Assembly (NCBI GenBank): GCA_020975725.1
Contig: QXJR01000020.1
Coordinates: 1-64,000 of the forward strand
Direction: 5' to 3'
Source of the DNA: Picocystis sp. L7
Lineage: Eukaryota; Chlorophyta; Picocystophyceae; Picocystales; Picocystaceae
DNA: 64,000 bases
A model generated the notes under the pieces. The model had not been told where the DNA came from. It was given only the letters and a program-made list of their open reading frames with translations, and ran no database searches. Shown here piece after piece: positions 31,576-64,000 of this stretch. The position numbers and the translations under genes are program-made. Each line of letters opens with the position of its first letter. Position 1 is the stretch's first letter.

Positions 31576-32098
31576 TGTAGCGTCCGACTGATGTGGCACG
31601 TGCTCAGGGTCTCACCAGCACCGAAAAGAGCGTCGTTTGAAGGTGGCGAAGTGGAGGAGGCGTGGGGAAGGCGGTAGCTCTTCCGAAAGAAAGCAAGTGA
31701 ACTAAAAAAGACAAAGGGAGGGACCTAGGGGTCTACCTCTCTCTCAACCGCCCTTGAGCGGTTGAAGACAGCCTGGCGGGGCTCCCCAACTGCCCACGTG
31801 GGGGGCGGGCGATGCATTGGATGGTCCCGAAGGGTCGTTTCCAAGCGACCCTGGCCTGTCCGTCGCATCGCCACCGTTGGGTTGCCCCAGCCCTACCTTC
31901 TAGAAGGGATTGAGGGAAGGGATTCCAAACACCACAACCCTTCAATCCCGGTCTGTTCCGTTCGAGTCCTCGATGGGGAGGTCCCTTAGTAAGGGGCGAG
32001 TCCCCTTACTACAAGGGTTCTGACCGGACCAGGTCTCGACCCAACTTGGAGAGGGGTTCGAAGGGGCCCTCTCATGGATAGGGCCTCTAGGGCCTACA
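31576..32098 (-). repeat. family X 3' LTR
   Basis: 523 bp with TGTAG...CTACA ends. On the minus strand it follows the pol stop and a purine-rich tract (ACAGGAACCAGGAGAA). It appears identical to 45931-46453. Small frames within it are repeated in the other copy and are not genes. Confidence 0.92.
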
Positions 32099-32235
32099 TT
32101 CTCCTGGTTCCTGTCACTAACTGACACACCTAAGCATGATTGAAATCATAAATGTAACTGATGGGGTCATAGAGCATAGTCTGAATTTCTGCCACGGTAT
32201 GTGTTGATTCATATCCATCTGTCCATAGCACACGG

Positions 32236-32817
32236 TGTAGCCTAGCAGGGACCCTACGAGACCCTGCGTGAAGACCCCGAGACTTTGGGGAGTAAAAGGG
32301 CAGTCATTGCCTTACTGCTCCCTACTACCGTTATACCATAGATCCGGGTCTGGATTGAATGTGGGTCAACAGAGCCCGGGAATAGATGCAGAACGCCCCG
32401 GGTCAATGGACATGTTTCAGTAAGGGATGAAGGGAACCCTTGACCGGTAGAGTTGAGTCGAAAGGATTCCCTTTCCCCGTGTACTTCTAGAAGGTAGGGC
32501 TGGGGAGGCTGGACGGTGTCGATGACTCGGACAGCTGGCGGACGCCCCACGGCTGGCTGCACGGACGGTCAGATTTGACCGTCAGCAGCACGTGGACCCT
32601 CCTTGTGCCCCACTTGCCCTCATCTCAACCGCCACTGAGTGGTTTTGAGAGACGGACCTCCAGTCCATCTCTTTGCCTTGCAATTCACTTTTCTACTTGT
32701 CCTCCGAGACGACCTCCTCGCCTCATCAGCCTCTTCCAGGACCTCAACGACTGCTGAGAGCCGCAACTCGCTCGTTGCACAAGTGTCCCCTGTCTGCGAC
32801 CCTACTTGGACGCTACA
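32236..32817 (+). repeat. family Y 5' LTR
   Basis: 582 bp, TGTAGCC...CGCTACA, with no difference seen from 39142-39723. It contains a core GGTAGGGCTGGGG and a hairpin CAACCGCC...GAGTGGTT shared in form with the X and Z LTRs. Confidence 0.93.
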
Positions 32818-32828
32818 TTGTCGAAGCC
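32818..32828 (+). other. family Y candidate primer-binding site
   Basis: TTGTCGAAGCC immediately after the 5' LTR, identical to the site in family X. It is non-canonical because it lacks the TGG start. Confidence 0.5.
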
Positions 32829-32838
32829 TCGCTTGGCG

Positions 32839-34113
32839 ATGAGCGACTCGGAGGAAGAATTCCTCTCCGGAACCGCCACACGAATGCAACGGTTGAGAGG
32901 TGAATTGGAACGTGAGCAACAAGCTCGATCCGTCCTTGCTCAGCAAGTGGAGGAGTTGGAAAGTCAACTACGTCGTTTGCGTAACGACACCCCCGCTCAA
33001 GACCCGCAAGTGCAAGAAGAAGAACCGCTTGGGGAAGAGGATCTCCCTCGCGAGGACAATGGACCTACTCCACCATCAGTTGAACCCAATGAGAAGGCAG
33101 CTGGGAATGCTTCCCACCTGGCTATGCAACCATTGAGCCAACAAGGACTTCATTCACTCACCAAGATGTACCAAGCTATGGAAGGCTCCCACCGGTTGCA
33201 AGGAGTGGCATTGTCCAAGCCAAAAAGCTTCTCTGGAACGGAAGTGATAGATGACCCATATGCACTCACCCACTGGTATAGGGAGGTTGCTTGTTGGGTT
33301 GAAGGTTACGCGAGCGATCCAACTCAGCAGGTAGTACTAGCTCTCCAGACCTTGACAGGCACAGCCCGCATCATGGTCGATAATATTATCATGGCTGATC
33401 GGGAGCGCGTTCCAAACTTACCGTCTCTCTTCAGTCTACTCAAGGAGACCTTTCAAAGAAGAGACCCAGGGCCTGATGCTTGGAAAGAATTTCAGCGGGC
33501 TCGTTTACGTCAAAACAAGGAGAATGTGATCACTTACTTGAACCGCCTCCTTCTTCTGAGTTTTGTGATTAATATGAGCGATGACCCCACCTGTCCAAGG
33601 GTTGATGAGGATGACATCGCCACCAGGTTACGCATCGGCCTGCCATATGACAGTGGCAATAAGGTGGAGCAACACATGCAACTGATGGTTGATTTGGAAC
33701 GCAAGCCAGATGTGTCCCCATGGGGCATAGCAGCCATCGCATTGAAAGTGGAAGCCCAGGACAGAGAGAAAGCTCGGCGTGTTTCACGCACGGTCAGGCC
33801 GCTCAATCAAAATGGTCATGGAGCCAAATCTGTGGCCACTGTCCATGCCTTACCTCAGAAGGAAGGGAGCTACCGCCCCAACGTACGATCGATCGAAGGA
33901 CGGGCCGCCAAGCGATTCAGAGATTTATCGGAGGAACTTCAAAAAAGGATAGTGGCTGCGCAGACACAGATGAAAAGTCTGCCTTTGGGAGCCAGTCTTT
34001 CTCAAGACCAACTTCAACTCTGTCAGAGTAATTCCTTGTGCATCAAGTGTAGACGCTACGGGCATGACGCAAAACATTGCCGTCACACCCAGCCAATGAT
34101 GCCAAAAAACTGA
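32839..34113 (+). CDS. family Y gag
   Basis: The ATG at 32839 (MSDSEEEF) matches the family X gag start. The product is about 424 residues. It has an N-terminal coiled coil (about residues 15-50), a Pro/Glu-rich linker, a capsid-like region (HWYREVACWVEGY, RRDPGPDAWKEF) and a CCHC knuckle CIKCRRYGHDAKHC. The stop follows the slippery site at 34104. Confidence 0.9.
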   Translation: MSDSEEEFLSGTATRMQRLRGELEREQQARSVLAQQVEELESQLRRLRNDTPAQDPQVQEEEPLGEEDLPREDNGPTPPSVEPNEKAAGNASHLAMQPLSQQGLHSLTKMYQAMEGSHRLQGVALSKPKSFSGTEVIDDPYALTHWYREVACWVEGYASDPTQQVVLALQTLTGTARIMVDNIIMADRERVPNLPSLFSLLKETFQRRDPGPDAWKEFQRARLRQNKENVITYLNRLLLLSFVINMSDDPTCPRVDEDDIATRLRIGLPYDSGNKVEQHMQLMVDLERKPDVSPWGIAAIALKVEAQDREKARRVSRTVRPLNQNGHGAKSVATVHALPQKEGSYRPNVRSIEGRAAKRFRDLSEELQKRIVAAQTQMKSLPLGASLSQDQLQLCQSNSLCIKCRRYGHDAKHCRHTQPMMPKN

Positions 34114-37100
34114 ACAGGCTCCTCCCGACGGAAGAGGCCGTCGGGATGGAGCCAGGAGAGGTGCCACCCGCAAGCGCGAGGTCTGATCCGTTGACTCTCA
34201 ACAACTTATACCCAGATCAGGTGGTAACCTTACGAGCGTCGCCAAACCCTCGCCCCCGTTGTGAGTTCCTCACAGCCAGCAGTACTATTGGACCTACAGG
34301 TCCTACTGACCTGTCCACACAGGCGTACGTGGACACGCTTGCCAGCAACTCCTTCTTAAGCATTCATTACCTTGAAAAACTGAAGAAGCATGACCCAACA
34401 CAGCAGAATTGGAGGCCTACTGGCCAATACTTTGATTTCAGCCTAGCAGTAGGGACAGAAGTGCACCAGGCCCAAGTTATTCAAGCACAGATTACAATCG
34501 ATACCTTTCAGGTGAGTCATTATTTTGGTGTGGCCCCCATTGAGACCTTTGAATGCATACTAGGTGTCGACTTCTGCCACCTCTTCTTGCTGCACATAAA
34601 CTGGCAGCATCAGTACATGGAACTTAAACATCCAGATGGGACAGTTCATAAAGTACAGGGCGACACAGCATTTTTAAAAGCCCGTAAACTTGACCTTATA
34701 GTGCCCCCCTCTGAAATCAAAGAGGCCATGCAAACAGAAGGATGTTTATTACTAATGGTGCAACCTCTTGATGTCACCTGTGAGCTAACATCTGAAGAAC
34801 TAGAAACTTCGACCTTCCGCAGTAAGCTCAGTGATGCCTGCACGCTGTCACCCAACGAACAAGAGAGACTGCAGAAGCTGCTCAGCAAGTACGCGCTCTG
34901 CTTTGAAAAGCGTACCACCTTACCTTGCGAACGCGTACCCGGTGAGTCATTCAAGATTCAGCTGGAACCTGGTACTCAGCCGGTGCATCGCAACTATTAT
35001 CGGTTGTCCCCACAACAGCAGGATGCTCTACGCGAACTGCTGACCGAATACGTGGACGTTGGGAAAATGGATGTCTGTGCGGGATCGAGTTGGGGGGCAC
35101 CTGTCCTCCTCATCCCAAAGAAGGATGGGGGGTGGAGGGTCGTGTTCGACTATCGAATGCTAAATGCAGCCACAATTAAGGACCGCTACCCGTTGCCGCG
35201 AATAGATGACCACCTGCAGAACTTGAGAGGGTCAAGTATCTTCTCATCAGTAGACGCCCTAGACGGCTTTCACCAGCTTCCCATGAATGGAGAAGATGTT
35301 GACAAGACAGCAGTTGTTACTCCTTTCGGCAGCTATGTATGGAGGGTTATGCCAATGGGTCTGGCCAATGCCCCTGCAATGTTCCAGAGAATGATGAATC
35401 GAATTTTTGGGGCATTGCCCTTTTTAAAGGTCTATATGGATGACATATTGATACACTCTGTAGATCAAGAGAAACACTTTGAACATTTGGAAGACTTCCT
35501 CGAGGTATGCCAGCGTAACGACATACGACTGAAAGAGTCAAAATGTCACTTCTTCCACCGAACGCTGGAATGGGTAGGTTTTCGCATACATGCTGGCCAG
35601 CTCAGTTGTGCAGACCATTTGGTGGAGCGCATACAAAAGTTCCCTAAACCTGTCACACACAAACAAAACTTAGCATTCCTGGGACTTTGTCAATTCTACA
35701 TGCGTTTTGTACGCAATTATGCAGAGATTGCTTCACCTCTTACAGAGCTCACTCGCAAACAGTACCGCCACGACTTCTGTCGTTTCTGGAAGGCTCAACA
35801 TGACCAGGCCTTTGAACACCTTGTGCGTATGCTCACTACTGGACCTATTTTACAGTTATTTGATGAAGACCGGCCTATACGCGTTGAGACTGACGCTTCG
35901 GATTTGGGTATGGGGGCTGTACTACTACAAGAAACCTCCCCCAACACCTGGGAACCAGTTGAGTATTACTCTAAAAAGTTCAATTCAGCACAAAGAAACT
36001 ATCATCCAGCAGAGAAGGAGACTTGTGCTATCGTCTACGCTCTGCAGCATTGGCGGCACCTTCTCTTTGGACAGAGATTCACTGTCCTTACAGACAACAA
36101 AGCCAGCATGTACTTGCAAAGCAAGTCCGCAGAACAACTCAGTCCCCGGGATCAGCGCTGGACGGCGAAGTTGGCATACTTTGCACCTTTCGCTGTCGAG
36201 TACCGCCCAGGATCTCAAAATATCACTGCAGATTACTTATCGCGCAACCCCCCTAGCACAGGTCCTCCCATCATCCGGATTTTAGACTTATGTGCAGGTA
36301 TGGGCACAGTCCTTCGAGCTCTGTGGCATCTCATACCAACTGGCTATCCAATACAAGTTGATTACATAGCAGTCGAAATAGAAGAGCATGCCCGAAAGGT
36401 AATACAGAGGGTGTTTGCTGAGGTGAACCTCGATCGACCTGGACTCTTTCACCGCACAGATATTTTCCGTTATGGCAATGATGTACGAGTATTGGCGCAT
36501 CGAAGAAAGCTACCACCTGTCCACCTGCTTATCGCGGGGGTACCATGCCAGCCGTTCTCCAAAGCCAATACCTCGCCAGACTACCCCAGTTATGGGCTGC
36601 GGGATGAAAGAGAACTTTTTACAACGGTACATACCCTTTACAACCGACTTGGTCGACCAGATTATATCATCGAATGTACTCCTTTTGCAGGCCACCTTTA
36701 CAAAGATTTTCAGCAGGTTGCGGAAATGTTTGGAGAGCCCGCCTTACACGACATGTCCCAGTACTGCCCCCAGAAAAGGAGCAGGTACTGCTGGACTTCG
36801 CTTCCGTCCAATTCACGTATATGGCATGTACCCGGTCTGCCCCTTACCTGGCAAGATTGTTTGACCGATGGAGCTACGGTTCCTACTGGCGCAATGAAAC
36901 AGCCCGTTCTTAAATACCCCACTTTGATGGCCACGAGTAACTCGCATAGTGACCGCAATCGGACAACATGGGTACGTAACTCAGATGGAACTGAAAGAGC
37001 GCTGACAGTTGCAGAAAAAGAGCGCTTGGTTGGGATGGAAATTGGAGACACAGCTGCCGAGAATGTCTCAACAAGCAGGCGACATCGGTTGTGCGGCAAT

Positions 37101-39110
37101 GCATTCCCCGTAGCGTGGATAGCCAACCTTCTGGACCTTTACTTTAAAACACCCACAGGGACGCTTCGACCGCTAGCTAGCCGCAGTCTCACCGAGGCTG
37201 TGTGTGTTCAAGGCAAACAGTCCAGAATCCTGTCCGCGTTAGCCGATCCGGGCAGTCCCTCTTTTGTGCAGCGCCTACGGTCCGCCGCTCTATCTGACCC
37301 TCAGTATGAGGCATGGCTGCGAACGCTGCCCCCACATTTGCGTGCCACCAATGGACTGCTTTTTGAAGTCAGCCCTCCAAATCAGATCGATGTCTTCGAC
37401 GGCCCTGCTGTGGTACTGGTTCCCGCAGATGACGCCTTACGTCAGGACTTATTACACCTAGTACATGACCAGGCGCACTTCGGTGCAGAGCGTACCTTCG
37501 CAAACGCCAAGCGCCACTTCACTTGGAAAGGAATGAAACAGCATATAAATCACTTTGTCGCGCGCTGTCCAACTTGTCAGATGCAAAAACCAGGAACAAC
37601 ATCTAGGCACCAGCCCCTCTTTGCCGAGACTAAGTTTTATCCCTATCCATTTCACACAGTGGTAATGGATGTGGTCGAAGGATTGCCCCTTACAGCCAAG
37701 GGGCATAATGGGGTGCTTACTGTTGTCGATCGTTTTACGAAGTATGCGATCTACATTGCTATACACACTTCCTGGAGTTCTTTCCGACAAGCGCAATGCT
37801 TGCTAGATGCGCTCGTGTACCGCTTCCATACGCCGCAGCGCATTCACACTGACAATGGGCCAGCGTATCGCGACCTTTTCCAAGCATTCTGCGCTGCAAT
37901 GGGAGTTCAGCATTCCACTGGAACACCGTATCATTCACAATCCCAAGGAGGTGCAGAGCGACAGCATCGCACTCTTTTACAGCAGCTGCGCTTAACGTGC
38001 GATGACCGTTTAAACTGGGATGACTATTTACAGGCAGCTGCCCATGCTTATAATGACAGCGTACATGCTGTTACAAAAGTTGCGCCGTTTGTCGCTTTGT
38101 TCGGATGCCCTTCAAGGTTGCCCTTGCACTTGCAGTTCCTAACCTTACAGGACAATACAGAGAGTCTCACAGATATGATATCCACAGTAGACCAACGGGT
38201 TACTGTCCTACTAGACAAACAGCGACAATTGTACAGAACCATGCTGGAGCATTTGCATAAACAAGCTGAGAAATTCCAGGCTCTGCGTTCACAATTACCG
38301 ACTCGCTCTTTCAAGGTTGGTGATCAAGTGAAAGTCCAGTATGGCCTGAAGGGGCCAACTGATAAACACAAACTGGACCCATACTACGTCGGTCCATTCA
38401 CCGTTACTGAAGACTTGGGAAAAGGGGCTTACAGGCTACAACTGCCCCCTGATTCGCCCTATTCTGACCGCTTCAATGCTGACCGTTTGGCACCGTGGTT
38501 TGATTCAGATTTAACGCTCTTCCCTTCACAAGAACCTACTGGTGCATCCACCTCCCTTCCCGTGGATGCCAACGTGGAACCCGCCGTAATCATACAGCGC
38601 TATCTATTGAGAGACTATCAACTCTTCCCCCAACAGCCTGTTCGTTATTGGGTCAAGACAACTTCAACTACAGAACCCTACATGTGGGTCAATGAAACTA
38701 GTGAACTACTAGATGAGTTTTTGGTGCTGGAGGAAAACAATGGCTGCATTCCCGAACAGGGCATTACTGCCTCTAACCTTGAGAAAGTGGAACAGCATAA
38801 ACACCAAGTATATTTACAGTATCCAGCACCTATATTAGTGAACACCTGGACTTCTTCAAAGCTACCATTCCAGACCCGACGAAGACCGACTTACAAGTCA
38901 CCCCATAACCTGCAACAGGCAGTGGTGCAACAGTTGTTTCATGCCTCCGATGGCACACAAGCATACTTTCAAGGCATGGTGATTGGCACATCGGGTGAAA
39001 ACTATTGCGTGCGCTGGACTGATGGGATCGAGCAAAGTTATACAGCTGCTGAGATACGTGCGATGCTATATGACCCCATCAGTTATGTGTATGACTTTCT
39101 TCACGTCTGA
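34077..39110 (+). CDS. family Y pol polyprotein with DNA methyltransferase
   Basis: A 1677-codon open frame, reached from gag by -1 frameshifting. In order: retropepsin-like DTLASNSF (about 34330), RT with YMDDILIHS (about 35440), RNase H with TDASDLGMG (about 35890), DNA methyltransferase (36265-37146), H2C2 finger (37470-37590), integrase with MDVVEG, HTDNGPAY and GGAERQHR (37660-37960), and a C-terminal Tudor/chromo-like fold (YFQGMVIG, YCVRWTDG, AAEIRAML, 38960-39070). RT-RNase H before integrase is Ty3/gypsy order. Usual gypsy pol proteins lack the methyltransferase, which adds about 290 residues. Confidence 0.94.
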   Translation: MPSHPANDAKKLNRLLPTEEAVGMEPGEVPPASARSDPLTLNNLYPDQVVTLRASPNPRPRCEFLTASSTIGPTGPTDLSTQAYVDTLASNSFLSIHYLEKLKKHDPTQQNWRPTGQYFDFSLAVGTEVHQAQVIQAQITIDTFQVSHYFGVAPIETFECILGVDFCHLFLLHINWQHQYMELKHPDGTVHKVQGDTAFLKARKLDLIVPPSEIKEAMQTEGCLLLMVQPLDVTCELTSEELETSTFRSKLSDACTLSPNEQERLQKLLSKYALCFEKRTTLPCERVPGESFKIQLEPGTQPVHRNYYRLSPQQQDALRELLTEYVDVGKMDVCAGSSWGAPVLLIPKKDGGWRVVFDYRMLNAATIKDRYPLPRIDDHLQNLRGSSIFSSVDALDGFHQLPMNGEDVDKTAVVTPFGSYVWRVMPMGLANAPAMFQRMMNRIFGALPFLKVYMDDILIHSVDQEKHFEHLEDFLEVCQRNDIRLKESKCHFFHRTLEWVGFRIHAGQLSCADHLVERIQKFPKPVTHKQNLAFLGLCQFYMRFVRNYAEIASPLTELTRKQYRHDFCRFWKAQHDQAFEHLVRMLTTGPILQLFDEDRPIRVETDASDLGMGAVLLQETSPNTWEPVEYYSKKFNSAQRNYHPAEKETCAIVYALQHWRHLLFGQRFTVLTDNKASMYLQSKSAEQLSPRDQRWTAKLAYFAPFAVEYRPGSQNITADYLSRNPPSTGPPIIRILDLCAGMGTVLRALWHLIPTGYPIQVDYIAVEIEEHARKVIQRVFAEVNLDRPGLFHRTDIFRYGNDVRVLAHRRKLPPVHLLIAGVPCQPFSKANTSPDYPSYGLRDERELFTTVHTLYNRLGRPDYIIECTPFAGHLYKDFQQVAEMFGEPALHDMSQYCPQKRSRYCWTSLPSNSRIWHVPGLPLTWQDCLTDGATVPTGAMKQPVLKYPTLMATSNSHSDRNRTTWVRNSDGTERALTVAEKERLVGMEIGDTAAENVSTSRRHRLCGNAFPVAWIANLLDLYFKTPTGTLRPLASRSLTEAVCVQGKQSRILSALADPGSPSFVQRLRSAALSDPQYEAWLRTLPPHLRATNGLLFEVSPPNQIDVFDGPAVVLVPADDALRQDLLHLVHDQAHFGAERTFANAKRHFTWKGMKQHINHFVARCPTCQMQKPGTTSRHQPLFAETKFYPYPFHTVVMDVVEGLPLTAKGHNGVLTVVDRFTKYAIYIAIHTSWSSFRQAQCLLDALVYRFHTPQRIHTDNGPAYRDLFQAFCAAMGVQHSTGTPYHSQSQGGAERQHRTLLQQLRLTCDDRLNWDDYLQAAAHAYNDSVHAVTKVAPFVALFGCPSRLPLHLQFLTLQDNTESLTDMISTVDQRVTVLLDKQRQLYRTMLEHLHKQAEKFQALRSQLPTRSFKVGDQVKVQYGLKGPTDKHKLDPYYVGPFTVTEDLGKGAYRLQLPPDSPYSDRFNADRLAPWFDSDLTLFPSQEPTGASTSLPVDANVEPAVIIQRYLLRDYQLFPQQPVRYWVKTTSTTEPYMWVNETSELLDEFLVLEENNGCIPEQGITASNLEKVEQHKHQVYLQYPAPILVNTWTSSKLPFQTRRRPTYKSPHNLQQAVVQQLFHASDGTQAYFQGMVIGTSGENYCVRWTDGIEQSYTAAEIRAMLYDPISYVYDFLHV
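34104..34153 (+). promoter_or_regulatory. family Y -1 frameshift signal (slippery site and hairpin)
   Basis: A_AAA_AAC at 34104-34110 is in the gag frame just before its stop. Six nucleotides later a hairpin spans 34117-34153: GGCTCC pairs GGAGCC and CCCGACGG pairs CCGTCGGG. The pol frame is -1 relative to gag and overlaps it by 37 nt. Confidence 0.84.
36265..37146 (+). other. cytosine-5 DNA methyltransferase domain in family Y pol
   Basis: Motif I DLCAGMGT, motif IV GVPCQPFSKAN with catalytic Cys in PCQ, motif VI region IIECTPF, motif VIII QKRSRYCW, motif IX LTVAEKERLVGM and motif X RLCGNAFPVAW follow in canonical order over about 290 residues. PCQ resembles Dcm/DNMT1-type enzymes rather than the PCN of DNMT3. 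Replacement of ENV by ECT keeps the essential Glu. Confidence 0.94.
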
Positions 39111-39141
39111 TGTGTCAGTGACCTGACAGGAGCCAGGAGAA

Positions 39142-39723
39142 TGTAGCCTAGCAGGGACCCTACGAGACCCTGCGTGAAGACCCCGAGACTTTGGGGAGTA
39201 AAAGGGCAGTCATTGCCTTACTGCTCCCTACTACCGTTATACCATAGATCCGGGTCTGGATTGAATGTGGGTCAACAGAGCCCGGGAATAGATGCAGAAC
39301 GCCCCGGGTCAATGGACATGTTTCAGTAAGGGATGAAGGGAACCCTTGACCGGTAGAGTTGAGTCGAAAGGATTCCCTTTCCCCGTGTACTTCTAGAAGG
39401 TAGGGCTGGGGAGGCTGGACGGTGTCGATGACTCGGACAGCTGGCGGACGCCCCACGGCTGGCTGCACGGACGGTCAGATTTGACCGTCAGCAGCACGTG
39501 GACCCTCCTTGTGCCCCACTTGCCCTCATCTCAACCGCCACTGAGTGGTTTTGAGAGACGGACCTCCAGTCCATCTCTTTGCCTTGCAATTCACTTTTCT
39601 ACTTGTCCTCCGAGACGACCTCCTCGCCTCATCAGCCTCTTCCAGGACCTCAACGACTGCTGAGAGCCGCAACTCGCTCGTTGCACAAGTGTCCCCTGTC
39701 TGCGACCCTACTTGGACGCTACA
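39142..39723 (+). repeat. family Y 3' LTR
   Basis: Partner of 32236-32817 and preceded by a purine-rich tract (ACAGGAGCCAGGAGAA). The pol frame of the surrounding X element runs into it by chance on the minus strand; that extension is an artefact of the insertion. Confidence 0.93.
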
Positions 39724-39727
39724 ACGG

Positions 39728-42700
39728 CATCTATTGTCATGCTTCTGGATCACTGTTCCCTGGTAGAATTCTGATTTGTCATCGGTGACATGGAAGAGGT
39801 CCTGTACCACGGCATGCAGCAGGTGAGCAGGTGGTTTGAACCGCGGTCGTTTACGGACTTGCATGGGCAGGTGGCTTGAGGTCCAGGTGTTGACCATGAT
39901 GGGTGCAGGACTCTGCAAATATACCTGTTGTTTGTGCTGCTTAACATGCTGAAAGTTGTTCTGTGTTATACCTGTTTCTGGTATGCAGCCATTTGTTTCT
40001 TCCAATGAGAGGAATTCTTCCAAAAGATAGCTTGTTTCATCGATCCACATGAACGGGGTCGAGACGGAGTTTGTTTGGACCCAATATCGAACGCCGGCTG
40101 CTGGGAACAACGAATAATCTCGCAACAAGTAACGGATGGTGTGATGAACTGGCTCCACTTGAGTGTCTGGAGGCAGCAATGCATGCTGCGGATGTCCTGA
40201 ATGTGCAGGAAATACTGTGAGGTCCGAATCCACCCATTTTTCCAAGCGGTCTGCATTAATGCGATCAGAATATGGGGAGTTGTTGGGTAGCTCCAGGCGA
40301 TACGCTCCTTTCCCCAACTCCTCTGCAATGGTGAATGGACCTACATAGTAGGGATCGAGTTTGTGTTTGTCAGTAGGACTTTTGAGTCCATACTGAACCT
40401 TGACCAAATCTCCTGGCTTGAAGCTACGTGGCGTTCGATTGTTTCGCAGTTCACGGAATGAATCTGCCTGTTTCTGCAATTTCTGCAGAATAGCTTTGTA
40501 TACCTGTTGCTGTTGTTTCAAAAAGGTTTCAATACGATGATCGGTTGAACAAACAGATGTGTTTGCATAAGCATCCTGCATAGTGGGTAATTGCAGGTGC
40601 CAGGGTAATCTAGAGGGGCACCCATAAACTGCAACAAACGGCGAAACCTTGGTGACAGCGTGCTCGCTGTCATTATATGCATGGGCAGCAGCCTGCAAGT
40701 AGTTGTCCCAGTTGCGGCGATCGTCGCAGGTTAGTCTCAAGGTCTGTAGCAAGGTTCGGTGTTGTCGTTCGGCTCCGCCCTGTGACTGTGAATGATATGG
40801 GCTACCCGTGGTATGTTGAACCCCGAGCGCAGAACAAAAGGCCCTAAATAATGAGCGGTAAGCTGGTCCATTATCTGTGTGGATCCTCTGTGGGGTGTGA
40901 AATTGATATATCAGACTGTCCATGATACACTGTGCTTGGCGGAATGCGCTCCAGGTGGTATGGATAGGAATATAGATCGCAAATTTGGTGAAACGATCAA
41001 CGATTGTTAGTACTCCATTGTGGCCTTTGCTGGTAAGCGGGAGGCCTTCCACGACATCTAAGACCACAGTATGAAATGGATATGGGTAGAATGCTGTCTC
41101 TGGAAAGTATGGCTGGTGACGCGAGACTGTACCTGGCTTTTGTAATTGACAGGTAGGACACCGCGCCACAAAATGCTGAATTTGGTTGTGCATATTCTTC
41201 CATCGGAAGTGCCGTTTCGCTGCTGCGTAAGTGCGAGCGGTTCCAAAATGGGCCTGGTCATGCACCAGGTGCAAAAGGTCTTGACGGAGAGCGTCATCGG
41301 CTGGGACCCATACCACTGCTGGACCATCATAGGAAGTAAAGCTATTAGCTGTTGGCTTGTCAAACAGCAGCCCATCTCTAACCTGCAGGTGATGGGGAGG
41401 ACTGTTTACCATGGCCTTGTATTGAGAATCTGATATTGCTGCTCTCTGCAATCTTTGGATGATAGGTGTGGCCTGTGAATCTGTGAGCATGGCTGCAACT
41501 TTGGAGGGGCTGCGAAGAACGCACACAGTCGGTGTATGACTGCGGCTAGCTAGCGGTCGAAGCGTCCCTGTGTGGTTCTGTAAAAAGGCAGTCAGCAAAT
41601 TTGCAATCCACGCTACAGGAAAGGCATTGCCGCACATTCGATGGCGAGAGGCCTCTGAAACTTGGGCAGCAGCGGTGTCATTGGCCTCCATTCCAACTAA
41701 GCGCTCTTTTTCTTGAATCTGTAGTGGCCTCAATGTTCCATCAGAGTTTTGGACCCAGGTAGACCGACTTCGGTCGCTGTGCGATTTGTGGGAGGCCATC
41801 AAGGTGGGGCACTTTGTAATAGGTTGCCCCAGTTCGTCGGTAGGCACAGTAGATCCGGGTGTTAAGCAGTCTTGCCATAGAACGGGGAGGTCCTGCAAGG
41901 GTAACAATTCTGAAGGGTTAGGCAGGGAGGTCCAGCAGTAACGGACGCGTCTCTGCGGGCAGCATTGTGCCAAATCATGTAAAAGTGGCTCTCCTAACAT
42001 GTCACTAATCTGCTGGAAATCAGCCCCCAAATGCCCCGCAAAGGGGGTACATTCAATGATGTAGCTTGGGTGGCCCAGTCGCTCCAGCAAGCGATGAGCG
42101 GAGGTAAACAGTTCTCGATGGTCGCGTAAGCCATAGCTCGGATGATCCTTTGAATTATTGGCCTTGGAAAAGGGCTGGCATGGAACGCCAGCAATGACCA
42201 AGTCTACTGGAGGCAGTTTGCGGCGGTCCGTTAGTAGGCGGACATCGTTACCATAACGAAAAATGTCGGTCCGCGAGAAAAGGCCAGGTCGGTCAAGACT
42301 GACATCTGCAAAGACGCGTTGAATGACTTGGCGTGCGTCGTGATCGAGTTCTACTGCGATGTAATCAATCTGTAATGTAGCACCAGGGGGAACTAGATGC
42401 CACAGGGCCCGTAACACGGTACCCATTCCTGCACACACATCCAGGATTCTGACAATGGGCTGTTTGTCTTGACTGCTGTGCCTAGAAAGGTAGTCTGCAG
42501 TAATGTTTTCGGGACCCGGGCGATAGTGAACTTCGAACGGTGCGAAGTACGATAACTTAGCTATCCAGCGCTGATCGCGTGGACTTAATTGTTCTGATGA
42601 CTTGCTCTGAAGATACATGCTGGCCCGGTTATCGGTGATGACTGAAAACTGTTGTCCAAATAGTAGGTGACGCCAATGCTGGAGCGCATAAACGATAGCG

Positions 42701-44649: not shown

Positions 44650-45908
44650 TGTTTTGCATCATGTCCATAACGGCGGCATCGCAAACATAGGGAATTGGCA
44701 GTACACTGTTTTTGCTGATCTGGAGAGAGAGTGGCTCCCAAAGGGAGGTCCTTCAAGTCTGTTTGGACCCTGACGATGCGTTCTTGAAGTTCCTTGGAGA
44801 GGTCAGCAAACCTTTTGGCGATGCGGCCAGCAGGGGTAGTTGCTGCCCTCTTTGATGTAGGATCAGAATGGGGCATCGCACGGATGGTGGCGGTCGATGT
44901 TGTGCGGACCGTATTGGCTCTTGTAAGCTTGTTGCCGCGGGCTGCAGCTTTGGCCCGTTCTCGTTCTTCAGCCTCTACCTTCAAGGCGGCGGCACAGACC
45001 CCCCAGGGGGACATGTCCGGAGCGCGTCCAAGTTCCACTAGCAACTGAAAGTGTTGTTCTATTTTGTTGCTCATCGAGTAAGGTAGGCCGACACGCAGTT
45101 TCGTGGCGATGTCGCATTCGCTGATTTTCATGCACGTAGGGTCTGTGCTCATGTTTACCACAAAACTCAGCAAGAGTAGCCGATTCAAGAATTTCACCAC
45201 GTCTTCCTTCATCGGGTGCATGCGGGCGCGCTGAAATTCCTTCCACGCATCCGGCCCAGGATTGCGTCGCTGAAATGTTTCTTTCAACAAATCATAGAGA
45301 GCCGGAAGATGCGATACGCGATTCTTGTCACCCATTATGATGTTGTCCATCATGATTCTTGCGGTTCCGCTCAATGTTTGGAGGGCAAGCACAACTTGTT
45401 GGGTATCGTTCAAGGCGTAACCTTGTACCCAGCAAGACACTTCACGATACCAATGAGTAAGTGAATATGGGTCATGGGTGAGTTCGGCACCTGAGAATGA
45501 CTTGGGCTTCGTGAGCGTCACACCTTGCAAGCGTTGCGAGGCTCCCATGGCTTGGTACATATCAGTGAGGGAATGCAACCCTTTCTCGGAGAGGGGATGC
45601 ACCGCAAGAGGAACGTGCTCTGCTGGTTTTAAGTCTTGGTCTGATGGTTCTTGCGGAGGAGCCTCATGTGGAAGCTCCTCTTCTTCCTCTTGCGCTTCAT
45701 TTTCCACGGGGTCTCCGCCAACGGGCGGTGCATCAACAACTCCATGTCCGGTAAGGGAAAGCGTACGAAGTTGTTCGAGCTCACTTTCCAGCAACGAATT
45801 CCTCGCTTCGAGGTCTTTCCGACCTTCTTTCTCTCTTTCGAGCTCCTCTCTCATTCGTTGAAAACGGGTGAGGGTCCCCAAGGGGACATCTTCTTCAACA
45901 TCACTCAT
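44613..45908 (-). CDS. family X gag
   Basis: A 431-residue open frame starting MSDVEEDV with a long predicted coiled coil (residues 15-55), an acidic linker, a capsid-like retrotransposon gag region (HWYREVSCWVQGY, RRNPGPDAWKEF) and a CCHC knuckle CLRCRRYGHDAKQC near the C-terminus. It would form the particle and bind RNA. It ends at a slippery A-run shared with the other families. Confidence 0.9.
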   Translation of the reverse strand: MSDVEEDVPLGTLTRFQRMREELEREKEGRKDLEARNSLLESELEQLRTLSLTGHGVVDAPPVGGDPVENEAQEEEEELPHEAPPQEPSDQDLKPAEHVPLAVHPLSEKGLHSLTDMYQAMGASQRLQGVTLTKPKSFSGAELTHDPYSLTHWYREVSCWVQGYALNDTQQVVLALQTLSGTARIMMDNIIMGDKNRVSHLPALYDLLKETFQRRNPGPDAWKEFQRARMHPMKEDVVKFLNRLLLLSFVVNMSTDPTCMKISECDIATKLRVGLPYSMSNKIEQHFQLLVELGRAPDMSPWGVCAAALKVEAEERERAKAAARGNKLTRANTVRTTSTATIRAMPHSDPTSKRAATTPAGRIAKRFADLSKELQERIVRVQTDLKDLPLGATLSPDQQKQCTANSLCLRCRRYGHDAKQCRHSSPMSPKN

Positions 45909-45919
45909 CGGTGGGTGAT

Positions 45920-46453: not shown

Positions 46454-46457
46454 GTGG

Positions 46458-56395: not shown

Positions 56396-56611
56396 CAATT
56401 GGAGATGGTACATGGCACGGTATTCCCTCATGGAGGGTGGCAAGGTATCGAAGTACCTATTGGCAACACTACCGTACCTGCAAGCATGGTAGCTTGTTAG
56501 TAACGCAGCAACACAATCCTCTTCACTCGTCGCACGCGATCCAATCGTCTTTTGTCGAACGTCCATCAAAAACGGCTATAGCTCGCCCATTTTCCCAAAG
56601 ACCCATTCGAC

Positions 56612-57324
56612 GTATTAGACTTGCGTCCGTGGTTGAATGACCCAACACACGTACTCTTGGTGACGAGGGTCTCGTGGACAGGATTCGCACCCCTTGTACC
56701 GGGGTCTTCTTCTCTCTCTCTTCTCCCTTGCGTTGAAGGAGCCTCGGCCGGCGTGGGAGGCAAGAACGGACGTGCTGGAGCGTCCAGGTGGTTTCGCCTG
56801 TTGCGTTGGTCAGGGTCGGAGGAGGAGGCGTGTTGCGCACTTGGCTTGGCAAGTAGAAGAAGTGTATCACAAAGCAAAGAGGGACCAAGGGTCTACCTCT
56901 CTCACCGCCTCTCACTGGCGGTTGGAATTGGGGCAACTGGGGTGTCATGGCAGCCCACGTGCTCCCTAGAGTCACATCTGACCGTCCGTTGCGTTCGCCC
57001 CGGGGCGAACGTGAGCTGGCAGTCGCATCGACACCGTCCAGCACCCCAGCCCTACCTTCCAGAAGCAAAGGTAGAGATGGGGTCGGTCCCCTTCAGTCGG
57101 TCTGTTTCGGTCTAAATACCGATGTCCCTTACAGAAAACCCGTTCTGAACCGGGGCGACCTTCCTTCAATACGAACCCCCAAGGGGACTGACTCCAGTTC
57201 CGGAACGGTACAGCCGTTGTTTGAGAGGGGACACCATTGCCCTTCATCCATATGGGGTCCCGGGGGTCTGGTCCCGTAGGCCAGGGTCTCGTAGGGACCC
57301 TGGGAGGCCTCGCTGGCCGTTACA
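56612..57324 (-). repeat. family Z 3' LTR
   Basis: 713 bp; on the minus strand it begins TGTAACGGCC after a purine tract (GAGCCGGGAGAG) and ends GTCTAATAC. It shares the GGTAGGGCTGGGG core and the CCGCC/GGCGG hairpin with the X and Y LTRs. Confidence 0.88.
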
Positions 57325-57352: not shown

Positions 57353-60300
57353 TTAGAGCTGGAAGTCATATATGTACGAAACTGGGTCATACAGCATAGC
57401 CTTGATTTGTTCTTCCTGATAGTAATCCTTTTTCCCATCTGTCCATAGTACTTCATACTGGTTGTCTTGGTATGCATGCACCATCCCCTGAAAGTATGCC
57501 GGTTGGTCCTGTCCCTCCAAATAAAACAGCTCCTGTACCACACTGTTCAGTAGGGTTGTCCTTGGTGGAGAGGGCGGGCGCCGGCGTGTCTGGTACGGTA
57601 GCTTATGATATGGCCAGGTGTTCGCCATGATCGGGTTCGGAGACTGTAAATAAGTTGTCTTCTTATGAGTCTGCACGGCATCGAAGTTCGCTGGCAAAAT
57701 CCCTTGCTCTGGTATGCATCCATTTTGTTCCTCCAAGGGGAGGAATTCCTCCAATAAGGCTGCTGTCTCATCTACCCAGGAGTAGCGTTGCGACGGATCA
57801 GCCATGTTTCCCTCAACCCAGTATCGTACGGGCTGCGCAGGGAAGGCTGAATAGTCCCGCAGTAGATATCGGCGTATGCGGTACGCTGTAGTCTCATCCT
57901 ACATGGCCCGAGTATCTGGAAGCGGTGCTGCTGCTGGCTGTAGATGCTCATCCATTGGGAAGAGCGTAAGATCTGAATCAATCCATGGTTCCAGTCTGTC
58001 TACGTGTATACGATCGGAGAAGGCCGATCCTGCGGGTAGATCTAATTGGTAAGCACCATTCTGTAGCACTTGCTTGATCACATAGGGGCCCACATAGTAT
58101 GGATCCAGCTTATGTTTGTCGGTCGGGCCCTTCAGTCCGTACTGGACTTTTACTTTGTCGCCAACTGCGAAGCTTTTGGGGCGCCGTTTGGATTTCAGAT
58201 TACCCATGCTTTCCGCAGCCCTGCTCAGATTCTTCAGGACCGCTTCGTAAAGTGCACGGTGCTGCTCCAGGAGGTTTGATACCCTTTGGTCATAAGTGGT
58301 GACCTGATCCATGTGTTGGTGCGTTCCACTGTTGGGCAGCTGTAGATGCCAAGGTAACCTGGATGGGCAGCCATACAATAATTCAAATGGTGAGTGACCA
58401 GTAGCAGCATGCACAGAGTCATTGTAGGCATGAGCTGCTGCTTGTAAATAGATATCCCATTGATGCTTGTTTGAACAGGTAGAGCGTAGCGTCTGCAGTA
58501 AGGTTCTGTGCTGCCTCTCTGCCCCACCTTGGGATTGTGAATGGTATGGGGTGCCTGTCACATGTCGCACGCCCAACGCTGCGCAGAACGCCTTGAACAG
58601 GGTCCGGTACGCCGGTCCATTATCAGTGTGAATGTGCACTGGGGTGTGATACCTGTACACCAGATGGTCCATCAGGCACTGGGCCTGCCGGTACGCGCTC
58701 CAAGTGGAGTGGATTGGTACGTATATCGCAAACTTCGTAAACCTGTCCACGACAGTAAGCACAGCATTATGACCTTGGGCAGTAAGTGGCAGGTTTTCCA
58801 CCACATCCATCACTACACTGTGGAACGGGTACGGGTGGAACCTTAGTTCTGGACACAACAACGCGTGCCGAGAACGGTTACCTGGTTTCTGCAATTGACA
58901 TACTGGCATCTTGCCACGAAGTGTCGTATGTGGTGGCGCATGTCCTTCCAGGTGAAGTGTCTGGCAGCTTCCGTAAAGGTTCGATCTTTTCCAAAATGCC
59001 TGGGGTCATGTACCAGGTGTAGTAACTCTTGCCTTATACCATTATCAGCAGGTACCACAAGTACTGGCTGTGAGTGTGGTCCTGATGTGAACAGGAGATT
59101 GTCTTGGACAGTGCAGTCTTGCGGTGGTGCGCTGAGCATGTCCTGATAACTCTGGTCTCTTTTTGCTGCGATGCGTATGCGATCCAGTATAGGAGGTATC
59201 TCTTGACCACCAGCTTCTGAAGCGGATGGTATCGGGCTGAAGGTATTTAGAGACGCAATCGAGCCACACACAGTCCGATCAGGACTGCGGCCGGCTAGCG
59301 GTCGAAGCGTCCGTGTGTGGTGTATCCAGCGGAGTAACATGTGGGCAATCCATCCTACTGGAAAGGCGTTGCCGCACATGCGCTGTCGACCGGCTTCACT
59401 GACATCAACTGCAGCAGTGTCACCTGCCTGTACTCCTACTAGTCGCTCACGCTCGCTGGTGGTCAGCGGACGGAGCTCCCCGTCATTGCCGTGTACCCAG
59501 GTGGATCGCGAGCGGTCACTATGGGACCGTGCGCTGGCCATCAGGGTTGGGCATTTAAGACGAGGCCTGTCGAAAGCGTCTTTTGGGGCGTGTGCCCCTG
59601 GATCCAAACATTCCTGCCACGTGAGGGGAGTATGTTTCGTTGTGCCCATTGATACCGGGGCTGGTGGCAGCGAGGTCCAACAGAGCCTGGTCCGTGCTTG
59701 AGCTCCATACTGAGAAAGGTCTTCAGTACTGGGTTCCCCAAACCATTGGGAGATTGTGTCCAGGTGAGATTCCAGGTGGGGTGCAAACGGGGTACACTCT
59801 ATCACAAAGTCTGGCGATCGTAGCCGTCTGTGAAGTTTTCCCATAGCTGTAAAGAGTTCTCGATCATCGTAAAGGCCCAGCGGAGGTTTACTTGCATCTG
59901 TGTTTGCGCGTGAGAACGGCTGGCAAGGCACACCTGCAATGAGCAGGTGAACCGGGGGAAGCTTTCGACGATGCGCCAAAGCAGCAACATCGTCACCATA
60001 TCGGAAGATGTCCTTGCGAGCGAACAGGCCTGGCCGAGCCAGGCGCACTTGATTGAACACGCGCTGGATGACGCTTCTGCAGTCCGCGTCTTTCTCAACT
60101 GCAATGTAGTCCAAGGTGTATTCCGCAGTTTCTGGTATGACCATCTCCAGTGCACGGAGCGTAGTGCCCATTCCAGCACACAAATCAAGTATGCAATATA
60201 CTGTTCCTTTCCTAACCTGGGCTGAATGGCGAGAGAGATAGTCCGGTCCAATATTTTCAGAGCCAGGTCTGTACTCCACAGTGAATGGAGCAAAGTAAGC

Positions 60301-62340
60301 CAGCTTCTCCACCCATCTCATTTCTCTGGGGGACAGTTGTTCAGTGGCCTTGGTATTGAGAAAATGACTGGCCTTGTTATCGGTGATGACCGTAAAGTTC
60401 TGCCCAAATAAAAGATGTCTCCAGTGTTGTAATGCATAAAGTATCGCGCAGGTTTCCTTTTCTGCAGGGTGGTAGTTCTGTTGCGCGCTGTTGAACTTCT
60501 TCGACCAGTACTCGACGGGTCGCCATGTGCCTTGCTCATCCTGCTGCATCAGCGACGCACCCATGCCAATATCTGAGGCATCTGTCTCTACCCTGATGGG
60601 TTTGTCCTCATCAAAGAGAGCCAGTACTGGTGGGCTATTTAAAGCTGTCACCAGTTTTTTGAAGGCTTTCTCCTGTGGCTCTTTCCAGTATGCAGCAAAG
60701 TTGTATTTCAGTGATGCTTGGTTCAACTCTGTAAGTGGGGAAGCCAATTCCGCAAAGTGAGGAACAAACCGCATGTAGAACTGACATAACCCCAGAAAAG
60801 CCATATTTTCGCGCTGCGATGTGGGGCGCGGGAACTGCTGGATCTTGTCGAGGAGACGGCCTGTGCAGGCCAACTGCGCGTCTCGAATGCGAAAGCCTAC
60901 CCATTCCAGGGTGCTCATGAAAAAGTGACACTTTGATCGCTTGAGCCGAATATCGGCTTGTTCGCATACGGCGAAGAACTCCTCCAGATGCTGAAAGTGC
61001 TGCTGTTTTGTCTCTGAGTGTACTAAGATGTCATCCATGTACACTTTTAAATATAGCAGGTGCCCAAACACTCTATTCATCATGCGCTGGAACATCGATG
61101 GCGCGTTCGCAGCCCCCATCGGCATGACCTTCCATACAAATGACCCAAAGGGGGTCACCACAGCAGTCTTGTCCACATCATCTGGGTCCATTCTGATCTG
61201 ATGGAAGCCATCCATCGCATCAAGCGATGAAAAGTACTTGGCTCCCCTCAAGTTCTGCAGATAGTCATCGATCCTCGGCAGAGGATAGCGATCCTTGACC
61301 GTAACGTTGTTGAGAAGGCGGTAGTCAAAAACGACTCGCCATCCGCCGTCCTTCTTGGGAACCAGTATGACTGGGGCTCCCCAGCTGGATCCAGCACACA
61401 GGTCCATCTTACCTGCGTTTACGTACTCGGCGATCAGTTCCTTCAGTGCAGTCTGCTGCTGCGGGGACAGCCGGTAGTAATTACGATATTGGGGCGTAGC
61501 GCCCTCCATCAATTGAACCTTGAACATCTCTCCCGGTACTCGTTCGGGCGGTAACTCGGTACGAGGCTGAAACAGGTGCTTATATTTCTTTTCTATCAGG
61601 TCATCTAGCCGGGCCTGGTCTTGGTCATCCAGGTCCCATGCATCGCTGAGTTGGCTGCGCACTCTGCTGAAGTCTTCTTCCTCACTTATCATTTCTGGAG
61701 TGGGGTCCATAGGCTGTATCATGAGTAACAAGCAGCCTGGGTCCTTGACTGCTGCGCGAGCTTCGCTCCGGGGCACGATGAGGTCCAGTTTCCTTGAAGA
61801 CAGGAACTGATGATCCCCATACACTGTAAACTTGGTTCCATTGCGTCCGCGTAGGATCATTCTGTGTTGCTGCCAGTCCAGTGCTTCCAAATGCTGATGG
61901 CAGAAGGTGGCTCCCAGGATACAATCGAACGTTTCCAGAGGGGCTATTCCAAAGTTCATGCGAGTGCGGAATCCATCGATCGTAAACGTAGCTTCAATCA
62001 CAGGTGCAGTGTGAACATCTTGGCCCACAGCCACTGTGAAATCGACGCTGTCTGTCGTATACTGCCAAGATGAACGGCACGGGTCAGCATCCTGCAGTTT
62101 CTTGAAAAGCTTTTCACTGATAAAGCAGTGACTTGCTAAAGTATCCAGGTAGGCCTGGGTTCTAATTCTCTGTTTCCTGTTTCCAAAGTATGTTTCTGCA
62201 GCAAGAAATTCCTGTCTTGGTTTCACATTAGTCAATGAGTGTAAGCAGACTGGATCTCTACTGTTGTTCACCGGGGCGGCTGCAGTTTTCGCTCCCGGCT
62301 CCGTCGCGGTAACCTGCGTTACCGGACGGAGAGCCATCAT
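57353..62340 (-). CDS. family Z pol with DNA methyltransferase (broken)
   Basis: Domains in order: retropepsin-like DTLASHCF, RT (YMDDILVHS), RNase H (TDASDIGMG), DNA methyltransferase (about 59320-60206), H2C2 region, integrase (MDVVENLP, HTDNGPAY, GGAERQHR) and a C-terminal module (YFQGMVHA, YEVLWTDG). The frame is broken in a few places and the copy is treated as a fossil. Confidence 0.88.
59320..60206 (-). other. cytosine-5 DNA methyltransferase domain in family Z pol
   Basis: Motif I DLCAGMGT, motif IV GVPCQPFSRAN, motif VI region VIECTPF, motif VIII QARTRLCW, motif IX LTTSERERLVGV and motif X RMCGNAFPVGW. All motifs of X and Y are kept despite strong divergence elsewhere, and the ECT variant is shared, so the domain was acquired before the three families split. 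Confidence 0.92.
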
Positions 62341-62346
62341 TTTTTT
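62297..62346 (-). promoter_or_regulatory. family Z -1 frameshift signal (slippery site and hairpin)
   Basis: On the minus strand an A_AAA_AAA run precedes the gag stop and is followed at 62335-62297 by a hairpin: GGCTC pairs GAGCC, CCGTC pairs GACGG and GGTAAC pairs GTTACC. Position and outer stem match X and Y, while the inner stem sequence differs. Confidence 0.75.
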
Positions 62347-63592
62347 GGCGCGCCCATCACTGATGCCATCTTGCAGACTGATTGATCATGACCATATCGA
62401 CGGCATCGCTGGCACAGAGCATGTGCAAGGCAAAGGTTCTTTTCCTCTGGGGTAAGCTTACCCCCAAGTGGCTTGCTGGCCAGCTGTGTTTGGACTTTGA
62501 TGATCGCATTTTTCTGTTCCTCTTCCAAATCATCGAACCGCTTGTGCTGACGCTTGGGGTATCCATCGCTTCTTGCTGTTTGCTGCTGCTGAGTTGGCAT
62601 GGCAGCTGCTATGGCTGCAGAGCGATACACCGCTCGCTGCGGTGTCGGTCGGTACTCGCGATTCACGGGCGATCGTCCTCTCCACTTTTCATCAGGCTGT
62701 TTGATATCCTCCCTTGTTGGTTCCGCCGCCTCGCGTTCAAGTTTGAATATGGTGGCTGCCAGGTTGCCTGGTTCCATGTTTGGAACCTTATCAACATCAA
62801 TTAGATGCTCCAGGTGTTTATACAAAGCCTTTTGGAGGTATGTTGGCAGACCATGTTGTAGCCTGGCTGATATGTCATGCTCGGACAGAGTACGGCAAAC
62901 AGGAGAGCTGCTGCATTCACCACAAAGCTGAGCTGCACCAACCTGTTCAAAAAGTGCAAAACATTTTCTGACCTTCTCATTCTGGTGGTGTGGAACTCGC
63001 GCCACGCTTCGGGGCCTGGATCTTGGTTTTGAAATGTCTTTTTCAAATATGTGTGTAGGTCCTCCACCGATTGCAAAGCATCAGGGTCTTTCATGATGAG
63101 GTTCTGGACCATGGACTTGGCTGTTCCTCCAAGTGCTTGACTGATGGCTAGGACCAATTGTTCCTTCGGTCGATCGAAGGCGTAGGCCTGGCACCAACAC
63201 AACACATCCCTATACCAATAGGTGAGAGAGTAGGGGTCTTCCTCAAGCTCCAACCCGGTGAACTTGGTAGGTTTTTCAAGGGAGACCTTTTGTATGTTCT
63301 TGGAGTCTTGCAATGCTGTCCCATACAAACTTGTGAGGTGTGGGAGCCCCTTTTCTTCGGACAAACTGATGGGTTCGGCGGGAGCGCCTTGATCGGTACT
63401 TGGAGAGTCATCACCATCGAGAAGGTCTTTCGCTACTTCCAATTCATTACCATCAGGTGGTATGGCTTGAAGAGCCTCGACTTGGGCTTCAAGATCAGCA
63501 ACTCTTCCACGAAGGATGTGCCCTTCGCTTCGTTCTTGTTCAAGCTCTCTTCGGAGAGTGCTCATTCTTGTGGCGTGGTCCGTATCGTCCAT
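62337..63592 (-). CDS. family Z gag (broken)
   Basis: Gag with the same layout as X and Y: N-terminal coiled coil (STLRRELEQERSEG), capsid-like region (YWYRDVLCWCQAY, NQDPGPEAWREF) and CCHC knuckle CQRCRRYGHDQSVC. It is a fossil copy whose frame is not continuous. It ends at an A-run slippery site before pol. Confidence 0.85.
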
Positions 63593-63627
63593 TCTTGCAA
63601 ACGAAACGCCGTCTTCTCCCAAGAGTA

Positions 63628-63637
63628 GGCTTCGACA
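63628..63637 (-). other. family Z candidate primer-binding site
   Basis: TGTCGAAGCC directly follows the 5' LTR on the minus strand, the same core as in X and Y. It lacks a TGG start. Confidence 0.45.
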
Positions 63638-64000
63638 GTATTAGACTTGCGTCCGTGGTTGAATGACCCAACACACGTACTCTTGGTGACGAGGGTCTCG
63701 TGGACAGGATTCGCACCCCTTGTACCGGGGTCTTCTTCTCTCTCTCTTCTCCCTTGCGTTGAAGGAGCCTCGGCCGGCGTGGGAGGCAAGAACGGACGTG
63801 CTGGAGCGTCCAGGTGGTTTCGCCTGTTGCGTTGGTCAGGGTCGGAGGAGGAGGCGTGTTGCGCACTTGGCTTGGCAAGTAGAAGAAGTGTATCACAAAG
63901 CAAAGAGGGACCAAGGGTCTACCTCTCTCACCGCCTCTCACTGGCGGTTGGAATTGGGGCAACTGGGGTGTCATGGCAGCCCACGTGCTCCCTAGAGTCA
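63638..64000 (-). repeat. family Z 5' LTR (partial, window edge)
   Basis: The 363 nt present match 56612-56974 without visible difference. About 350 nt more should lie beyond the window. Confidence 0.9.

Follow-up and report, generated by a model that had tools for sequence, protein, structure and literature searches.

The right half of a 64-kb window (the whole stretch of DNA analysed here, positions 1-64000 of contig C18 in the 20.5 Mb, 30-contig genome G000) contains three Ty3/Gypsy retrotransposons, X, Y and Z, each of which encodes a cytosine-C5 methyltransferase of ~300 amino acids (aa) in pol, between RNase H and integrase. From comparison of these sequences we consider it probable that the three elements belong to an old Ty3/Gypsy clade of a probable green alga, which once acquired a DNMT3-like methyltransferase and kept it as a working enzyme that most likely methylates the element's own DNA de novo.

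A DNMT3-like methyltransferase in the pol of Gypsy elements

In all three domains, motifs I, IV (VPCQPFS), VI (ECTPF), VIII, IX and X (GNAFP) follow one another in order, and each piece is matched by PF00145 (E=4e-8 for X; values for Y and Z in Table 1). In addition, a profile made from 20 copies finds DNMT3A and DNMT3B as its top matches in the PDB (DNMT3A at E=1e-12), and the domain is therefore not a chance resemblance. The match to the DNMT3A/DNMT3B catalytic domain covers profile positions 79-303 and aligns a WxxCL stretch with the LQECL of DNMT3, with 28-34% identity in pairwise MAFFT alignment and about 22-26% in structural alignment; the retrotransposon domains have PCQPFS and ECT where DNMT3 has SPCNDLS and ENV. 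The predicted structure of the X domain (model residues 7-309) has a fold nearest to DNMT3. Among solved structures, the domain is closer to DNMT3 than to DNMT1, DNMT2 or bacterial enzymes by both profile and fold, in a comparison set lacking phage enzymes, which are nearly as close in fold as DNMT3. Animal DNMT3 carries ADD and PWWP domains (PMC12344493, cited here, like PMC5890265 and PMC6338049 below, from excerpts), and neither was detected with the retrotransposon DNMT domain.

The sampled retrotransposon domains form a single clade in a quick tree (midpoint root, long branches, built without algal or protist DNMT3 sequences), which lies away from the host DNMT1, CMT and DNMT2 and adjoins a mixed group of phage enzymes and DNMT3A/C. 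Their motifs run unrearranged from I to X, unlike those of DRM enzymes, in which the C-terminal block precedes motif I. By profile search, predicted structure and tree, the domain is thus near DNMT3 and the phage DNMT3-like enzymes. In the tree, the latter (for example from Escherichia phage 121Q and Vibrio phage 104E43.1) fall together with DNMT3 and the retrotransposon domains; the 121Q enzyme matches DNMT3C/3A at 3e-23 to 6e-23, and among viral proteins the fold of the domain is matched best by a Caudovirales enzyme (E=4e-13). They differ in being stand-alone genes with 23-31% identity in weak tblastn matches to X. A phage donor was considered and set aside: tblastn of a 277-aa piece of X against phages gave nothing at 1e-5, and the 318-aa domain reached 5e-5 at best under a loose limit.

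X and Y share the Pfam order reverse transcriptase (RT), RNase H, PF00145 methylase, H2C2, rve integrase and SH3_Tf2-1, and Z has the same order spread over two frames; the succession RT, RNase H and integrase with an rve core identifies all three as Ty3/Gypsy. X and Y are also bounded by direct TG..CA long terminal repeats (LTRs) and short target duplications, with ACGG on both sides of X (a 4-bp duplication) and GTGG outside each Y LTR. Both are recent insertions, as their LTR pairs are 100% identical. X is nested within the LTR pair of Y, and the 3' end of Y pol is therefore split by X. The Z LTR copies are 99.7% alike over 696 columns, with LTR ends not delimited, and despite this match the Z frames are shifted in both gag and pol. 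A Pfam search of the X gag-like open reading frame (ORF) gave no gag match. In Y, as in X, a heptamer A AAA AAC precedes the gag stop and pol lies in the -1 frame.

Copy number and conservation of the domain

A PF00145 profile search of the genome found 121 places, and a search with the X domain found 125, 16 of them with an internal stop. Merging the lists and removing the host DNMT1, DNMT2, CMT and PWWP genes left 158 places, one being a host DRM-like gene; retrotransposon DNMTs thus occupy at least about 157 places, a few of which are weak. Of these, 68 are on contigs C3 and C4, which together comprise 2.39 of the 20.5 Mb. This indicates that insertion or retention is regional, and C3 and C4 are possibly outlier or low-recombination chromosomes. 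A listed DNMT lies no more than 1.7 kb upstream of 118 of the 150 scored integrase matches, and closer inspection added five more. Of the 27 others, ~19 fall to a related Gypsy family, V (two of them read, and 17 assigned by identical score alone).

For the analysis of conservation, 86 distinct copies (83 loci plus X, Y and Z) were reduced to 74 intact ones by removing 12 with stops, shifts or short cover. The original prediction of three Gypsy elements with a C5-methyltransferase between RNase H and integrase is borne out by the Pfam order and by motifs I to X, and each of X, Y and Z is indeed a Gypsy-DNMT element; rather than three families in all, however, they represent three of the 19 clusters formed by the intact copies at 90% aa identity. 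All 74 copies share the catalytic Cys, the Glu and Cys of motif VI, the two Arg of motif VIII and the Gly of motif X; the motif VI Cys is followed by Thr in 67 copies and by Val in 7. The count for the catalytic Cys is partly built in, because copies were pre-selected by a PF00145 match that usually spans motif IV; the motif VI Glu and the motif VIII Arg lie outside most of the matched stretches. The median ratio of nonsynonymous to synonymous substitution rates (dN/dS) over the domain is 0.095 in 28 pairs with dS 0.3-0.6 and 0.081 in 30 pairs with dS 1-2, while silent sites are saturated in the X-Y, X-Z and Y-Z pairs. The prediction that the methyltransferase chemistry is under selection therefore agrees with the invariance of the Cys, Glu and both motif VIII Arg and with a dN/dS of about 0.1 in diverged pairs. 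Two results had been named in advance as fatal to it, a tree placing the domains among inactive or non-DNA methyltransferases and a neutral dN/dS. Neither was obtained: the domains do not fall among DNMT2-type enzymes, and dN/dS is not neutral.

An old clade with a probably single capture

Two distant clusters, Q (L121, G000 C7:46500-55500) and W, hold the DNMT domain in the same slot as X, directly upstream of integrase. Their RT is 38% (Q) and 44% (W) identical to that of X, and their integrase 32% (Q) and 34% (W). In unrooted RT and integrase trees, V lies between DNMT-bearing groups (support 85/80 and 98/98), although the RT data taken alone are compatible with V and W grouping outside all others (p=0.21). 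Given one DNMT clade and this position of V, the simplest history is one old capture followed by loss in V, and the sampled copies most likely stem from one old capture. So deep a clade speaks for a domain that serves a function and did not end up there by accident.

DNMT trees and trees of the flanking domains show no significant conflict. In cluster Q, identity to the core copies is higher in the DNMT (46-50%) than in RT and integrase (32-38%), whereas it usually runs the other way. Exchange of the DNMT module between Gypsy lineages was considered for this reason and not adopted: in the approximately unbiased (AU) test, the integrase tree rejects Q with the core (p=3e-5), and the DNMT data allow Q with W (p=0.43, 0.51). 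Since the DNMT data do not reject Q with W, the trees can agree, and module exchange stays a lead only.

Family V carries no recognisable DNMT. One copy (L111, G000 C19:155000-164500, ORF 1405-9414, minus strand) encodes a 2669-aa Gag-Pol that lacks a PCQ methylase and ends, beyond integrase and SH3, in a Dam-like domain (PF05869, E=1e-12). The second copy (L112, 3058-9615, plus strand) has a frame that stops sooner and gave no Dam match. In V, about 250 aa separate RNase H from integrase, and this stretch was considered as the relic of a dead DNMT; the likeness is suggestive and not claimed, with an hhalign probability of 12.5% (E=0.0023) and a hidden Markov model (HMM) score equalled by 18/2000 shuffles.

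The same arrangement was also found in proteins from ENA, JGI and other contigs and from EukProt entries that bear the label Pavlova lutheri; the closest of them match X at 96-97% identity, with 62% and 34% of the query covered. No match in these searches, most of them without a species name, was named Klebsormidium. The Pavlova lutheri label may reflect contamination or mislabelling. Several of these EukProt proteins (P0006, P0156, P0164 and others) are up to 97% identical to X-type domains with partial cover, and the dataset may be contaminated by, or may be, this alga or a close relative. A contig binned in a Rhodobacteraceae metagenome-assembled genome (L100, PUNI01000121.1) carries a Z-like Gypsy-DNMT fragment whose domain is 58% identical to X and falls next to Z in the tree; it is almost certainly algal and mis-binned.

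Host methylation enzymes

The host genome encodes a DNMT1-like enzyme with BAH (L001), a DNMT2 (L002), a CMT-like enzyme with a chromodomain and a weak BAH match (L003) and a PWWP-bearing methylase (L004) that agrees with the ChloroDNMT class described in PMC12344493. A DRM-like gene (L119, 3437-4642, minus strand, G000 C20), named from its motif order, has the C-terminal motif block before motif I. As DRM is stated to be restricted to streptophytes (PMC12344493), either the host is a streptophyte or the range of DRM is wider. A human DNMT3A query against the genome at E 0.001 matched 86 places. Of these, 82 are no more than 900 bp from a listed retrotransposon DNMT, three adjoin Gypsy integrase matches and the last is the DRM-like gene. 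At this limit the search revealed no host DNMT3 without rearrangement, which leaves no donor in sight.

Features of the window

Table 1. Features of the three Gypsy elements in the window
Feature	Position	Strand	Remarks
X	32236-39723	+	LTR to LTR, sits inside Y
X 5' LTR	32236..32817	+	582 bp, TG..CA, 100% identical to 39142-39723
X gag-like ORF	32806..34113	+	435 aa from first TTG, start codon provisional; gag by position
X pol ORF	34077..39110	+	1677 aa, open
X heptamer A AAA AAC	34104..34110	+	immediately 5' of gag stop; pol open in -1 frame
X reverse transcriptase RVT_1	35112..35588	+	PF00078 E=1.7e-35
X RNase H	35787..36182	+	PF17919 E=1.1e-34, PF17917 E=5e-34
X DNMT3-like cytosine-C5 methyltransferase domain	36234..37187	+	PF00145, profile, predicted fold; 318 aa, ends from alignment
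X catalytic Cys codon	36546-36548	+	motif VI Glu codon at 36672-36674
X integrase, zinc-binding H2C2 and rve core	37428..37937	+	PF17921 E=7e-18, PF00665 E=1e-15
X SH3_Tf2-1-like C-terminal integrase domain	38352..38492	+	PF24626 E=2e-9
X 3' LTR	39142..39723	+	582 bp
Y	31576-46453	-	LTR to LTR, interrupted by X
Y 3' LTR	31576..32098	-	parted from Y body by X insertion
Y pol ORF	39526..44649	-	1707 aa as listed; last ~65 codons come from X LTR
Y integrase H2C2 and rve	40789..41298	-	PF17921 E=6.5e-17, PF00665 E=1e-13
Y DNMT3-like methyltransferase domain	41539..42492	-	PF00145 E=1.5e-10, motifs
Y gag-like ORF	44613..45908	-	431 aa, by position
Y 5' LTR	45931..46453	-	523 bp, 100% identical to 31576-32098
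Z	56606 to beyond 64000	-	continues past window end
Z stretch	56606..57300	-	partner of 63631..64000 match
Z integrase core and SH3	57899..58909	-	PF00665 E=9e-14; other frame than first pol part
Z pol, first open part	58843..62340	-	RT, RNase H, DNMT, integrase start; protease-like stretch under Pfam cut-off
Z DNMT3-like methyltransferase domain	59284..60240	-	PF00145 E=1.8e-7, motifs
Z gag-like ORF	62801..63622	-	273 aa, frame lost downstream; Pfam gag match under cut-off
Z stretch	63631..64000	-	696-column match to 56606 onward, 99.7%

The window also holds Copia-type reverse transcriptase ORFs (3937-7449 and 49055-51406, both plus strand), a DDE_Tnp_1_7 (piggyBac-type) transposase ORF and a 2293-aa, single-ORF, trithorax-like protein with PHD, SAND, Tudor and SET domains (14205-21086, minus strand). 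A fused S-adenosylmethionine decarboxylase / ornithine decarboxylase gene (AdoMetDC-ODC) lies at 26178-28706. Among the 120 matches listed for it, relatives occur in green algae and non-seed plants, Myrmecia bisecta is the best named one (48%), and a 100% match is found only in JGI/LGN contigs. On the strength of these green-lineage relatives the host is taken to be a green alga; a search for a conserved 18S pattern found nothing.

Discussion

Our comparisons suggest how such an element might use a methyltransferase. The DNMT domain would be made as part of Gag-Pol through -1 frameshifting at A AAA AAC and would be packaged beside RT and integrase. It could then methylate cytosines of the element's double-stranded complementary DNA (cDNA) or of the DNA around a new insertion, and CG marks might afterwards be kept by the host DNMT1-type maintenance enzyme. 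The benefit may lie in protection or disguise of the cDNA, or in self-limiting silencing of new copies.

Several observations weigh against a working enzyme that marks its own DNA. In motif VI, the domains have ECT or ECV and not ENV, and the Asn is absent in 74/74 copies. Constraint is tighter on the RNase H side, with dN/dS of 0.016 and 0.020 in the same two dS classes, and the linker to integrase, at 0.168 and 0.100, is not far from the DNMT domain. In addition, dN/dS exceeds 0.5 in 7/83 pairs with dS 0.05-1, and the youngest pairs (dS 0.02-0.1) give 0.26 (55 pairs) or 0.35 (136 pairs) over the domain, as expected if new copies drift. The domain is thus under purifying selection that is weaker than on RNase H and on average little stronger than on the linker, and the strong signal of selection is at the catalytic columns. 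The absence of a recognisable DNMT from V counts on the same side, as does the expressed KnitGypsy domain of Klebsormidium, which gave no methylation in yeast, a result that its authors call inconclusive (PMC5890265).

The sequence composition of the elements belongs among these points as well. The observed/expected CpG ratio is 0.72-0.74 in the bodies of X, Y and Z, within the range of three host genes (0.51-0.79). When CG was compared with other contexts in 33 disjoint near-identical pairs of DNMT copies, the CG transition rate was 1.6-fold higher (p=4e-7), but transversions were raised equally (ratio test p=0.89). CpG decay was accordingly rejected as a record of methylation, and no CG-methylation signature is claimed. 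The absent footprint could reflect little deamination, a non-CG context, quick loss of the mark or an RNA target. For the idea in the original prediction that such an element could hide its own DNA or steer host silencing, this comparison likewise gave no footprint. Among 16 trinucleotide contexts, GCT has 73 transitions against 16 transversions (odds ratio 2.9, p=8e-5, 0.0012 corrected) and CCC a transition deficit (corrected p 0.026), in counts from coding stretches with codon effects still in and with no DNMT-less element as control; the GCT excess is an unexplained lead.

Other roles for the domain have to be set beside this. The missing motif VI Asn and a whole-domain dN/dS near that of the linker would fit a domain that has lost catalysis and persists because it contributes structure or DNA binding to the polyprotein. 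We regard this as quite unlikely, as a binding-only role does not predict that the Cys, Glu and two motif VIII Arg stay invariant across clusters that are ~35-50% identical, even though the selection of copies through PF00145 tempers the argument for the Cys. Methylation of RNA, either element RNA or primer tRNA, as DNMT2 does, appears very unlikely, because profile, structure and tree all favour DNMT3 over DNMT2. An active enzyme could also work in trans, on host chromatin, on competing elements or on the integration site via the adjoining integrase, and not on the element's own cDNA. DNMT3-type enzymes act de novo on chromatin, the DNMT stands directly upstream of integrase in X, Y, Z and clusters Q and W, and the crowding of copies on C3 and C4 points the same way; such clustering may, however, reflect low recombination or relaxed selection only. 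We judge action in trans unlikely, though less so than the other two, and methylation of the element's own DNA remains the reading that we prefer.

A more far-reaching history is possible but doubtful. In it, the DNMT3-like methyltransferase was taken up once, from no DNMT found in the present host, and became a standard replication module of a wide algal Gypsy clade that kept it catalytically ready. In V the module would have disappeared, and a Dam-like adenine methyltransferase domain would have joined it or taken its place; selection would then keep the marking of own DNA and not 5-methylcytosine as such. That only one of the two V copies read has the Dam-like domain weighs against this. 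The PF05869 domain of V resembles the Dam-like methyltransferase of DIRS-type elements (Goodwin and Poulter, cited in PMC6338049), although V carries it at the C-terminal end of a Gypsy Gag-Pol, behind integrase and SH3.

The concept of a retrotransposon DNMT is already published. The DNMTs of SymbioLINE and SymbioDIRS and the Gypsy DNMT3 of Klebsormidium have been described, with Ka/Ks < 0.2, and SymbioDIRS domains are active on CG in yeast (de Mendoza et al. 2018, PMC5890265). The original prediction had referred to captures by LTR retrotransposons in dinoflagellates and charophytes; the charophyte Gypsy case agrees with this, while the dinoflagellate cases are LINE and DIRS elements and not LTR Gypsy. 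KnitGypsy-Dnmt3 of Klebsormidium nitens resembles X, Y and Z in being an LTR Gypsy with a non-rearranged DNMT3-related Pol domain, with key residues kept and Ka/Ks < 0.2. Its repeats, compared by description only, are called DIRS-like, whereas the LTRs of X and Y are simple, terminal and flanked by 4-bp target duplications, and K. nitens has fewer copies than the places counted here (PMC5890265). SymbioDIRS-Dnmt3 of Symbiodinium shares a DNMT3-family domain in the Pol of a high-copy retrotransposon, again with Ka/Ks < 0.2, but DIRS elements use a tyrosine recombinase (PMC5890265) and X, Y and Z an rve integrase. DCM sequences occur in Ty3/Gypsy and DIRS, and DAM-/DCM-encoding elements of these clades are reported from stramenopiles, red algae, green algae and charophytes, in a passage that does not tell which carries which (PMC6338049); the excerpt of PMC12344493 speaks of Copia and DIRS. 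In the open-access literature, judged by titles and abstract openings, we found no other recognisable report of a Gypsy-DNMT in a green alga. As a further case beside KnitGypsy-Dnmt3 and SymbioDIRS-Dnmt3, the elements described here combine ordinary LTRs with a large number of families and with a capture that is deep and probably happened once.

It is a paradox that retrotransposons should carry the enzyme with which hosts fight them, and the excerpted literature describes it chiefly for dinoflagellates and one charophyte. Our findings suggest that parasites may mark their own DNA with the very signal that cells normally use for silencing them. Because the 20.5 Mb assembly is compact, young copies are numerous and the host has a rich set of methylation enzymes, this alga makes it possible to test how a transposon benefits when it methylates DNA.

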